The translations under genes were made by a program, and so were the position numbers. A stretch of DNA of 22,342 bases. It comes from a virus. Location: IMG/VR virus record IMGVR_UViG_3300026455_000068, positions 1 through 22,342 of that record, one strand, 5' to 3'. A model generated the notes under the pieces. It was given only the letters and a program-made list of their open reading frames with translations, did not search any database and was not told where the DNA came from. This document shows positions 6,249-9,892 of the stretch, piece by piece; the stretch's first letter is position 1; each line of letters starts with the position of its first letter.

Positions 6249-6485
6249 TTATTCGTTGTAATAAGGAACTTTGTACGGTTTGCCATCAACCGTAATTTTG
6301 ATGAATCCAACAGGATTGGATGGCAAAGTTGCCGAGCCAGCCGTTGCGCTTGAAAAAGATGTGAAGTTAAGCAAATTCAAAAAGAACTGCTGCCATGCCC
6401 GTGTTGGTCGCTTTGTATTCGGGTCAAGAAACTCGCTTTGCGGGTATGGATTGACCTGTGGCGTTGAGTAAAGTCCATTGCTCAT
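6249..6485 (-). CDS. small conserved phage protein, probable tail component
   Basis: A 78-residue protein. Residues 18-40 (FLDPNTKRPTRAWQQFFLNL) and the C terminus (LPSNPVGFIKITVDGKPYKVPYYNE) match a pattern I recall in many short-tailed phages and prophages next to gp10-like genes, always without a known function. The N-terminal third is polar and Pro-rich; the C-terminal 25 residues look like a small beta hairpin ending in VPYY. Its ATG (6485-6483) shares a base with the stop of the gp10-like gene (TGATG), so the two are probably made together. A small structural or chaperone-like role at the tail is inference. It does not resemble the long trimeric coiled-coil needle gp26 of P22, which I could not find in the window. 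Confidence 0.75.
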   Translation of the reverse strand: MSNGLYSTPQVNPYPQSEFLDPNTKRPTRAWQQFFLNLLNFTSFSSATAGSATLPSNPVGFIKITVDGKPYKVPYYNE

Positions 6486-8458
6486 CAGTTAGCCCCCACA
6501 CTTGCTTTAAGGTTTGCTGACACAATCACAGCCTTTACAGGGTCGGTAATGGCAACCTCATAAATGCGGTCACGTGCCATGCCCAAACGCCTCCAAATGG
6601 CTCGATTTTGATACTTTCCTTGTGCGCCAATGTTGACCCAATACTCTTTTGACCAAGTAGAGCCACCATCGTTTGACCACCTTAACATGGCTTTTGGCTG
6701 AGTCGTGGTCACGTTTTGTGGCACGCCACTGCTTTGATTGCCAATAATTAAAGATTCAGTCGGGCCAATTGTAAGGAATGCTTCAGGATAAATGATGTAT
6801 TCCTCTGGATTGTTGGTGTAATTTGTGAAATTTACCGACAAACCAGTTGTGCCAACACCAGGCTGAAACTGAATCTGCAATTCATTGAAGTATTGGCGTT
6901 GCAAATCAGTCACCAAGTGAGGCGCACGACGGACACGGCGAATGGTATTGCCATCGTCTGTGTAGTTGGCTTTGTCCAACATATACAGCTTGCCATTCTC
7001 ATAGTCGCCAACCATCACCATGCCCTGAAAGACACAACAACAATTACCACGATGCCGCCCAAAGGTCTGATCAGCTTCCCAATATAACCACTTGTGCCAC
7101 ATTTGAGTCACAGTGTCGTACGCCCATGTTAAGCCATTGTCGCCAATGCTCGGGAAGTTCACCACATAGATTTCGTGACCTTCAAGTTGGTATGTCCAAG
7201 CAATTGCGTCATCAATGACTTGCCCAACCAAAGTGTTTTCAACCGCATGGGTAGAAATACGCTGCGGGATATAGCCATTCATTTGCATGATCTGGCCTTG
7301 ACCACGATTGTTTCGGCTCACATACGCAAACGAGTTGCCCAAACGTGCCAAAGAAAACTCAGCCACGCAACCATGTTGGGTTGATGTGCCAGGAATACGC
7401 TGGAAAGGAAACTGAACCGCCCCAACATCTGTCCAGACCTCAGAAGATTGTTCACCAAGTAGGTAAACTTCTCTATGGTCAACAATCAACGCCACCAAGT
7501 TGTCAGGGCCACCATCCTTAACGCCATAACTTAACGCAGGGCTGATTGGCGAATTCAGATCAGATGCACCCCACCACTGCGAATCAGGTCGGTTATAGAC
7601 AAAGTAATTGTCCATAATGTCCACAGTGGTCGCACCCGAAAACGCCCCATCAGACGAGGGCAAAACCGAGAAATTCAACGCCCACATGGTCACGCCAACG
7701 GAAATCGTGTGGCTATTACTTAGCTTGAAAGTGGTTGAGGTCAGTTGCTCAACCACAATCGTCCCAAGAGTTACGCCAGTGCCTTGGATGGTCTGACCAA
7801 CATATATATTTCCTGTTACGCCACTGACAGTCAGAGTCGTACCAGAAATTGTCCCTGTGAATGTGGCACTTACAGCCGCAGTGTTTAGCGCACCATTGGC
7901 AACGGTTTGGCTTCGGTTAACAGTCCAAGACGAGCCAGAACCAGCAGTGATAATTGTTTCGGACAATACCCCTACGCCCAAAACTTGTTGGTCTGTGGCT
8001 ATCGTACCACTGGAAAGTGTATTGACAGTCAGGGTTGTCCCACTGATAGAACCTGTCAAAACCGCTGTGGCAGGTGCTGAAATGCGCCATGTGTAGCGAT
8101 ATGCCCCATCCACGATATACACATTTGTGCCATTGTCTGTAATGCCAACAATGCCTGACGAGGTGTTAAGAATCCCAACAACCGCAGGGACAAGGTTAGC
8201 CGACAAAACATACACATACGGGCCACAAACCGCCACCATTTGCTGACCACCAGACACAGTGCGTAGCCCACGAATCTCTTGCTTATTGGGCAAAACAGCC
8301 TTGGTGGTCAAGCCAGGCGTTGGGTAAAGGGCAACCACTCCTCGAGTGCCAGGCTCTTTCAGCGGGTCAATCTCGGGAAAGAAGTTAATACACTCCTGTG
8401 CATCCTGATAGATGCTAGGTGCTTCGTAACTTGGGCCGACAAATCCAAAATCAGGCAT
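6485..8458 (-). CDS. P22 gp10-like packaged-DNA stabilisation / tail hub protein with inserted beta modules
   Basis: A 657-residue protein. The N terminus (MPDFGFVGPSYEAPSIYQDA, then CINFFPEID near 23) and the later segments DNYFVYNRPDSQWWGASDL (283-301), VYLLGEQSSEVWTDVGAVQFPF (331-352) and TQHGCVAEFSLARLG correspond to the P22 gp10 family, which plugs the portal below gp4 and forms the hub for fibres. P22 gp10 is 472 aa; the extra length here is largely an insertion at residues 132-262 made of two tandem beta repeats (see separate feature). The last 150 residues (LRWSNDGGSTWSKEYWVNIGAQGKYQNRAIWRRLG) are typical of the family end. AAGGAG sits five bases before the ATG at 8458, nine nucleotides after the adaptor gene. 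Confidence in the family is high; the function of the insertion is unknown. Confidence 0.88.
   Translation of the reverse strand: MPDFGFVGPSYEAPSIYQDAQECINFFPEIDPLKEPGTRGVVALYPTPGLTTKAVLPNKQEIRGLRTVSGGQQMVAVCGPYVYVLSANLVPAVVGILNTSSGIVGITDNGTNVYIVDGAYRYTWRISAPATAVLTGSISGTTLTVNTLSSGTIATDQQVLGVGVLSETIITAGSGSSWTVNRSQTVANGALNTAAVSATFTGTISGTTLTVSGVTGNIYVGQTIQGTGVTLGTIVVEQLTSTTFKLSNSHTISVGVTMWALNFSVLPSSDGAFSGATTVDIMDNYFVYNRPDSQWWGASDLNSPISPALSYGVKDGGPDNLVALIVDHREVYLLGEQSSEVWTDVGAVQFPFQRIPGTSTQHGCVAEFSLARLGNSFAYVSRNNRGQGQIMQMNGYIPQRISTHAVENTLVGQVIDDAIAWTYQLEGHEIYVVNFPSIGDNGLTWAYDTVTQMWHKWLYWEADQTFGRHRGNCCCVFQGMVMVGDYENGKLYMLDKANYTDDGNTIRRVRRAPHLVTDLQRQYFNELQIQFQPGVGTTGLSVNFTNYTNNPEEYIIYPEAFLTIGPTESLIIGNQSSGVPQNVTTTQPKAMLRWSNDGGSTWSKEYWVNIGAQGKYQNRAIWRRLGMARDRIYEVAITDPVKAVIVSANLKASVGAN
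7673..8065 (-). other. tandem pair of inserted beta-rich modules in the gp10-like protein
   Basis: Residues 132-196 and 199-262 of the gp10-like protein are two related units. Both start with LTGSISGTTLTV or FTGTISGTTLTV, continue with a GxxIxxxQxxxGxGV turn, and end with an SQTV- or SHTI-like strand. They interrupt the gp10 fold between YRYTW (120-124) and FSGATTVDIMDNYFVYN. Alternating Thr/Val/Ser and Gly turns predict beta structure. The same unit occurs once in the gp4-like adaptor. Confidence 0.75.
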
Positions 8459-8467
8459 TGCAGCTCC

Positions 8468-9454
8468 TTAATTGAAGAAACCGCCCGTGAGAATCCAACC
8501 AGCGTCTTTAGATTTATTTGCCAACAATGCGTCAGGATACCTTGCCGTTTGCAATGGCGACATATTCGTGCGCTTGATTGTTGATTTAGCCTGTGCTGCA
8601 TAGGCTGTAATCATGGCAATCTGTTGCGGGTCATTCTTGCCATACATGGGCATCAGCCGTTCAGCCAAACACCACCGCATCGCCATTACATAGCCTTGAG
8701 GCATGGAAATTGGCGTGTAATAGCTCTCGTATCGGCTGAAAATCGTGTTGGCAAATATGTGCATTTCGCCTTGCGACGGGTTAGGCCACAAGAACAAGTT
8801 ACCCGATTCCTCGCCAGGATTGAAATACAAAGCCTTGGGCCACGGGCCACTGAGTGTTTTCAGACCAATCAGCTCGTAGTCTTGCAAGGCAAGAATAGCC
8901 ACCTGATAGTCCAGACCGCCATTGATGATGGGCACACCATTGGAATTGGTGTTGATACGCACAAAAGCAGAATCAATGCTCAAAGGCTTTTGGTAGTAAG
9001 CCGTAATGCTAGTGCTGGCAACAGTCTGAGATTTGTTCAGAATGTATGTGCCTTGCTCGTTGACATTGCCCCCTGCGCCAGTGCCAAAAGACACAATTTT
9101 TGTGCCTTCAGCAATGCCAGTGCCACTCAAAGTCTGCCCTTGAGCCACTGCACCTTGCTGGATGCTGGTCACTGTTAAAACATTCCCAGTGATAGAGCCA
9201 GTAAACTGCGAACCAATAAAGTTTTGGGTGCTAGGATTTGGGCCAATCGTGTATTGGGTCTGACCTGGCACAACCGTGAAGATGATTTCAGTGACATTGA
9301 AAACCATCATGTTCTCGTTTGACCATTGATCGATCAAATCGTTGAACATATCAAACGCATCCTGAGCCGCTTCAGGGGTCGGGGTTTCTCCCGCTTCTAG
9401 TGCGCCAATGTCTTTTAATGCTCGGCTGATAATATCAAGTGGGGTTGTCGCCAT
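8468..9454 (-). CDS. P22 gp4-like tail adaptor (head-completion) protein with inserted beta module
   Basis: A 328-residue protein. Residues 1-70 (PLDIISRALKDIGALEAGE, AFDMFNDLIDQWS, PGQTQYTIGP) and residues 155-328 (SIDSAFVRI, YELIGLKTLSGPWPKALYF, LFLWPNPSQGEMHIFA, MRWCLAERLMPMYG) follow the P22 gp4 tail-accessory family, the ring that binds the portal and carries the hub. P22 gp4 is only 166 aa; part of the extra length is a beta module at residues 84-154. The open frame extends to 9520, but the ATG at 9454 has AAGGG at suitable spacing and gives the family's usual MATTP-type start, so I trimmed 22 residues. It overlaps the previous small gene by 20 nt. The peptidoglycan-hydrolase motif reported for some gp4 proteins is not evident to me. 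Confidence 0.82.
   Translation of the reverse strand: MATTPLDIISRALKDIGALEAGETPTPEAAQDAFDMFNDLIDQWSNENMMVFNVTEIIFTVVPGQTQYTIGPNPSTQNFIGSQFTGSITGNVLTVTSIQQGAVAQGQTLSGTGIAEGTKIVSFGTGAGGNVNEQGTYILNKSQTVASTSITAYYQKPLSIDSAFVRINTNSNGVPIINGGLDYQVAILALQDYELIGLKTLSGPWPKALYFNPGEESGNLFLWPNPSQGEMHIFANTIFSRYESYYTPISMPQGYVMAMRWCLAERLMPMYGKNDPQQIAMITAYAAQAKSTIKRTNMSPLQTARYPDALLANKSKDAGWILTGGFFN
8993..9205 (-). other. inserted beta-rich module in the gp4-like adaptor
   Basis: Residues 84-154 read FTGSITGNVLTVTSI, then GQTLSGTGIAEGTKI, a Gly/Asn loop, and GTYILNKSQTVASTSI. The same ordered motifs are seen twice in the neighbouring gp10-like protein. The module interrupts the adaptor between YTIGP and IDSAFVRI, where compact family members run straight through, as I recall. 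Confidence 0.75.
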
Positions 9455-9599
9455 TTTCTGTGCCCTTTTGAAGTTGCGGGATGACCTGCCTATCAATCTT
9501 GTGTAGCAGATTAACAACAACTTTATAGGGCAGCTCGCGTAATGCGCCAGCCACTATTTGCAATTCTTCGACAGTAAGTTCTAGTTTCACTTCGTTCAT
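9435..9599 (-). CDS. small conserved phage protein, unknown function
   Basis: A 54-residue protein (MNEVKLELTVEELQIVAGAL...QVIPQLQ). It has a beta start (KLELTVEEL) and two helices (ELQIVAGALRELPYKVVVNLLHKIDRQVI). This LTVxxLxxVxxALxELPYK pattern recurs in small proteins of many tailed phages beside tail genes; no function is known to me. The frame is open to 9629, but the ATG at 9599 overlaps the previous stop (ATGA) and follows GGTGG by five bases, so I take that as the start. The 3' end overlaps the adaptor start by 20 nt. A DNA-binding or assembly role cannot be decided from sequence. Confidence 0.7.
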   Translation of the reverse strand: MNEVKLELTVEELQIVAGALRELPYKVVVNLLHKIDRQVIPQLQKGTENGDNPT

Positions 9600-9892
9600 A
9601 CTGCCACCGTGAAGGTTTTTGGTTTCCAAGGCGGGTGAATTTCTTTGGTCAAATTCAACGCCTCAATCTGCTCTTTTATGCGTGATTCTACGGCGTTTTT
9701 ACCATCTTTCATAGTAGCCTGACGCACCCAATTAACGACCATTTCCTCATTGGTTTGCGCCAACGGAATCGTTAATTCAGGCTTGTCAAAGTACCAATAA
9801 CCCTCTGAGGCAACTTGTCCCTCAGTCACCAAGTAGCGAACATGGGTGATCAGTTCGCCCTCAGTATGAACTTCAAGAATTTCCCACTTCAC
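9596..9892 (-). CDS. conserved phage protein near fibre genes, unknown function, GTG start
   Basis: A 98-residue protein. It begins with a beta-type stretch (KWEILEVHTEGELITHVRYLVTEGQVASEGYWYFDKPEL) and continues with a helical segment (NEEMVVNWVRQATMKDGKNAVESRIKEQIEALNL), ending in a Pro/Trp tail (HPPWKPKTFTV). The WEI...ITHVRYxVT pattern is one I recall in small phage proteins that sit between fibre genes and tail genes, with no experimental role. The start is GTG at 9892, forming a GTGA overlap with the stop of the fibre-assembly-like gene; no ATG lies near in frame. The coupling suggests it is made together with that protein and may act on the same fibre. Confidence 0.7.
   Translation of the reverse strand: MKWEILEVHTEGELITHVRYLVTEGQVASEGYWYFDKPELTIPLAQTNEEMVVNWVRQATMKDGKNAVESRIKEQIEALNLTKEIHPPWKPKTFTVAV

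Follow-up and report, generated by a model that had tools for sequence, protein, structure and literature searches.

The minus strand of the 22-kb virus record analysed here (22,342 nucleotides in all, called the window below) carries a P22-like head and neck operon, and two adjacent genes in it raise the question of how one small beta module came to lie in two neighbouring neck proteins, and what it does there. An earlier note on this DNA had proposed that part of the adaptor repeats a module found twice in the gp10-like protein, that the module had spread by recombination, and that its copies might form a matched layer around the tail neck. The features concerned are the following.

8468..9454, minus strand: head-to-tail adaptor gene, SU10/T7-type, 328 aa from the ATG at 9454
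8993..9205, minus strand: inserted beta module, adaptor residues 84-154 (shuffles, controls, module-less relatives, profile scan)
6485..8458, minus strand: gp10-like hub/nozzle protein, 657 aa, beta-propeller predicted by homology (PHROG 578; PDB 7eeq, 9vyg, 8tvr)
7868..8059, minus strand: first gp10 module unit, about residues 134-197 (shuffles and controls, profile scan)
7664..7861, minus strand: second gp10 module unit, about residues 200-265 (shuffles and controls, profile scan)

The adaptor scores 34 bits against Pfam PF24175 (SU10_adaptor), above the curated cut-off of 27, and is thus of the SU10 type. Its match to PHROG 12985 (E 7e-38) spans residues 29-324 of a longer, 350-aa open reading frame with a TTG start at 9520, yet occupies just 212 profile positions. 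The AlphaFold2 model (mean pLDDT 78) has a beta region flanked by two helical parts, and Foldseek matched it to the podovirus adaptors of cyanophage A4, DEV, N4, SU10 and T7, so that the arrangement typical of SU10-type adaptors, a bundle of helices interrupted by a beta dock domain, is present in the prediction; in a profile comparison with P22 gp4 the match is confined to the helical ends. The gp10-like protein matches PHROG 578 (head closure Hc3) with E 6e-93, has gp10, Pam1 and Pan3 as solved homologues (PDB 8tvr, 9vyg, 7eeq) and is encoded next to the adaptor, and so has both the homology and the gene position of a P22 gp10-like hub.

In the public records MW202520, MW202674 and MW202557 the adaptor is labelled 'portal protein'. 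The gene before the adaptor (9596-9892, minus strand, 98 aa) has a weak DUF7936 match; homologues accompany 92 of the 94 loci whose gp10 has modules, 35 of the 76 in which the adaptor alone has one and none of the 18 that lack it, a distribution confounded by phylogeny and by the shortness of the gene. An endonuclease gene sits between adaptor and gp10 in MW202674 (L231:7032-7610), and the adaptor-gp10 gap of about 1.8 kb in another locus suggests, together with that gene, that the junction accepts other genes.

Residues 84-154 of the adaptor are the same module, of about 70 residues, as the two gp10 units. Counted from the ATG at 9454, residue 84 begins at 9205 and residue 154 finishes at 8993, and the three motifs quoted in the earlier note are all present between them. 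BLOSUM62 local scores are 100 for the adaptor with the first gp10 unit, 91 for the adaptor with the second and 81 for the two gp10 units with each other. For the same pairs the highest scores among 2000 shuffles were 69, 66 and 75, so that each real score exceeds all 2000, and the highest among 589 control windows taken from other structural proteins of the same phage were 49, 49 and 60; chance and composition are thereby ruled out as causes of the likeness. A six-frame profile scan of the window found three copies (9205-8981, 8056-7868 and 7861-7664) and nothing else above 0 bits, with a profile trained on sets that include the window units, so the independent test is the comparison with shuffles and controls. 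At the DNA level the local matches among the three units are 22 bases or shorter, so they were not copied from one another recently. The first proposal, that two neighbouring neck proteins with different folds share one homologous module, is thus borne out.

In the adaptor the module occupies the loop between YTIGP and RP. It is absent there from the relatives P26218, PAE2 and MW202557; relatives lacking the module have YTIGPxGxxxxxRP at this place (17 residues in the compared segment), and the loop length is 17 aa in all 24 module-less adaptors except PBR31, against 88-93 aa in the carriers listed. The filler that PBR31 has at this loop, compared with the module as a putative divergent copy of it, gives an hhalign probability of 21%. 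SU10/T7-type adaptors (PF24175; T7 gp11) share the helix bundle and beta dock region with the adaptor of the window, but those in the PDB are without a 70-residue domain in the YTIGP..RP loop, as judged by length and alignment. The beta region of the T7 adaptor is a fibre dock, the fibre fitting between this dock and that of the nozzle (PMC6702177); the SU10 beta region is likewise called a fibre dock, and P22 and Sf6 have no dock (PMC9509320). Sequence profiles of the adaptor and gp10-like protein gave no usable match to the SU10 adaptor and nozzle by which to place the loops. In the adaptor model the module lies inside the beta region, between strands 67-70 and 157-171, and from this model and the order of domains it very probably interrupts the fibre-dock region.

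The strand pattern of the gp10 insert suggests a hairpin of propeller blade 2, though profile alignment to SU10 gp17 failed. This seems to be the same blade region that in the SU10 nozzle gp17 bears four Ig-like domains, which hold the short fibres before ejection (PMC9509320). In SU10 these small beta domains are inserted between blades 2 and 3 of the hexameric nozzle propeller, on the tail exterior. The gp10 insert likewise consists of small beta domains in a predicted propeller; the two cases differ in that no sequence similarity was detected between the domains, that the module here is also in the adaptor, and that its nearest folds are not Ig. It is plausible that both insertion sites face the outside of the neck. 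The gp10-like protein also has a second, unrelated insertion near its C-terminus (residues ~545-585), partly common to MW202520 and absent in MW202674 and P26218, and in seven other loci a different domain (GTGY-VND-..-TVVGG) is nested in the second module of the gp10 insert.

The module is far from confined to the neck. Carriers other than adaptor and gp10, from viral and bacterial contigs, form 43 clusters with no mutual similarity once the module is masked, and include tail sheath, baseplate wedge, neck terminator, the T7 tail-fibre N-terminus, pectate lyase and bacterial FG-GAP or Big_1 proteins. Among predicted viral structures, the module fold occurs for instance in a record entitled HK97 capsid protein and in lambda Stf-like and J-like proteins. 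Two collagen-repeat proteins of the giant virus Indivirus ILV1 (BFVD A0A1V0SCQ2 and A0A1V0SDM6) also contain the fold, one at 47% identity. Modules are nested in modules as well: adaptors of seven loci have further units inside the adaptor module, placed just before the last strand or in the first hairpin of the first unit, and one of them has a third unit.

Pfam searches with module sequences gave no match up to E 10, and hence no Ig or Big family, and no NCBIfam model matches; two long PHROGs include the module. E1_FCCH (PF16190) does not match the module sequences, though 2 of 39 carriers match it elsewhere or nearby, and a profile search of the PDB returned spurious antibody matches only. 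Folded alone the module has a predicted pLDDT of 84.7. Its closest PDB fold is chain 1 of Arthrobacter phage Bridgette 8eci (124 aa; probability 1.00, TM 0.66 by query length, 19% identity over 78 columns), but the E-value is just 0.042 and the chain has no profile sequence match to the module. E1 ubiquitin enzymes and F1-ATPase subunits come next with weak matches, all with E > 0.04, and there is no Ig domain among the leading matches. The module is thus promiscuous, and neither Pfam nor NCBIfam has a model for it. It resembles the phage Ig-like and decoration domains of the Fraser survey, as cited in PMC7602432, in being a small beta domain common to unrelated virion proteins, a pattern also described as phage protein domain mosaicism (PMC10684548); unlike Ig-like domains, it has no family model and its best PDB fold match is the Bridgette chain.

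If the copies formed a matched layer, with the adaptor and gp10 modules co-evolved and binding each other, they should be found together. Among 292 distinct adaptor/gp10 pairs, taken from 526 loci by scans some of which selected for the module, it is in both proteins in 175, in the adaptor only in 90, in neither in 27 and in gp10 only in none. The two scans that did not select for it, one for gp10 and one for the adaptor, gave the same categories: 65 and 18 pairs with the module in the adaptor alone, 1 and 8 with it in both proteins, and 1 and 22 with it in neither. Obligate pairing is thus rejected by the 90 adaptor-only pairs, and the one regularity that speaks for a matched layer, that in none of the 175 pairs with gp10 modules is the adaptor module missing, has another source in the tree.

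On a core tree built from representatives, with the adaptor and gp10 cores stripped of inserts, presence of the adaptor module needs one change (a 49-row clade, SH-aLRT 100). The gp10 modules need two among the representatives, a 21-row clade with support 99 and the locus L473 alone. Outside the representatives, L448 carries its gp10 module in another loop, and gp10 of its nearest relatives is without one, so that it counts as a third gp10 gain. On this tree, taken without an inferred root, gain is likelier than loss because the deep branches are without the module, and no loss of the adaptor module was seen in the 49 sampled lineages. The nested presence pattern fits a single gain in the adaptor followed by at least three later gains in gp10, from which the one-sided pattern follows. 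The insertions into the two proteins are separate, old events that need not co-occur.

Local exchange or gene conversion between the two genes is rejected by three results. In the module tree, which has few columns and does not settle the deep order of module groups, 47 of the 49 adaptor first units form one group (SH-aLRT 99), gp10 second units another (97) and gp10 first units a third (80), and the L473 gp10 unit and the second adaptor units are placed with modules from other proteins. Within one phage, adaptor and gp10 units resemble each other no more than they do between phages (50.0 vs 49.2%; 46.3 vs 46.3% identity), and orthologous units, those in the same slot, are 66-78% identical. 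At the DNA level adaptor first units and gp10 units reach at most about 72% identity. An N-x-N-E loop marks the slot: 201 of 271 adaptor first units have it, but none of 373 gp10 units and none of 114 other units. Spread by recombination therefore holds for the module family, across unrelated proteins, and fails for this gene pair, where units cluster by slot and not by genome. The matched layer likewise finds no within-phage excess of similarity; together with the adaptor-only pairs and the many unrelated carriers, a pattern that the earlier note had itself named as telling against it, this leaves mutual binding of the two sets of modules quite improbable.

The adaptor module is under purifying selection as strong as that on the core, with dN/dS 0.078 against 0.081 for the rest of the adaptor; the gp10 units are at ~0.13 and the gp10 core at 0.10 (NG86 throughout, dS being partly saturated). 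This bears on a passenger domain, a stable insert that folds readily, that exposed loops tolerate and that persists by drift. Such an insert might well be gained repeatedly, in several loops, and take up further modules and other domains, as is seen here, but selection at core level and the lack of losses in the sampled clade make drift alone a poor explanation, to which we give little credence. The low dN/dS, the lack of loss and the slot-specific loop together point to a fixed partner, for which the position at the fibre dock suggests a candidate, and favour a constant role at the surface of the neck, most likely around that dock.

A different role would be adhesion, the neck copies weakly binding glycans of the cell surface or matrix, in the way suggested for Ig-like decoration domains. 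Most carriers belong to the virion surface (tail fibres, baseplate, sheath, neck terminator, capsid), and in some relatives the adjacent fibre-like protein has the module too; the T7-like adaptor and nozzle of phage OWB (TTPA and TTPB) bind a host receptor (PMC7241545), and the decoration proteins Hoc, pb10 and gp12 bind carbohydrates (PMC7602432). The presence of the module in bacterial secreted proteins and tail fibres would fit general adhesion too. Against adhesion, there is no sign of diversification: dN/dS of the adaptor unit is low, its slot-specific loop is conserved and no loss is seen in the 49 lineages. We regard glycan binding as possible but doubtful.

The reading that we prefer is that a self-contained surface domain, a beta-barrel of about 70 residues, entered the YTIGP..RP loop once, in the adaptor of the ancestor of this podovirus clade, and has been inherited vertically since. 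A sub-lineage that includes the window later gained the module in gp10, where 2 to 4 units came to be arrayed at a single loop of the propeller predicted for that protein. The domain may stand out from the adaptor ring, with 12 copies if the T7/SU10 stoichiometry holds, and from the gp10 hexamer in 2 x 6. Its adaptor copy would then be a fixed contact surface that braces or seats a fibre or neck part, and not a fast-changing receptor binder. Taken whole, from single adaptor insertion through later gp10 gains to a fixed contact surface at the fibre dock, we consider this account somewhat better than an even bet. The analysis establishes the homology, the insertion, the sequence of gains, the lack of local exchange, the strength of purifying selection and the loop peculiar to the adaptor slot; exposure, copy number and contact with a fibre or neck part are inferences. 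Five loci have a fibre-like protein directly downstream of gp10 with one module near its C-terminal domain, and gp10 there has none. More speculatively, recruitment to the neck might have been stepwise, with first a copy at the adaptor fibre dock, then arrays in gp10, sometimes a copy in the adjacent fibre-like protein, and nested modules, giving a dense collar of barrels that seats fibres or touches the host.

The locus offers a tree-based, dated case, with the order of events, of how the part of a short tail that is most conserved takes up a mobile surface domain. It comes with hundreds of natural variants: adaptor only, adaptor and gp10, 2 to 4 units, and nested units. Naming the domain family would improve phage annotation, since it is found in fibres, sheaths, baseplates, capsid-associated proteins and two Indivirus proteins. 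An insertion like that of the SU10 nozzle, with no detectable sequence relation to it, suggests that domains have been accepted repeatedly at this part of the propeller.
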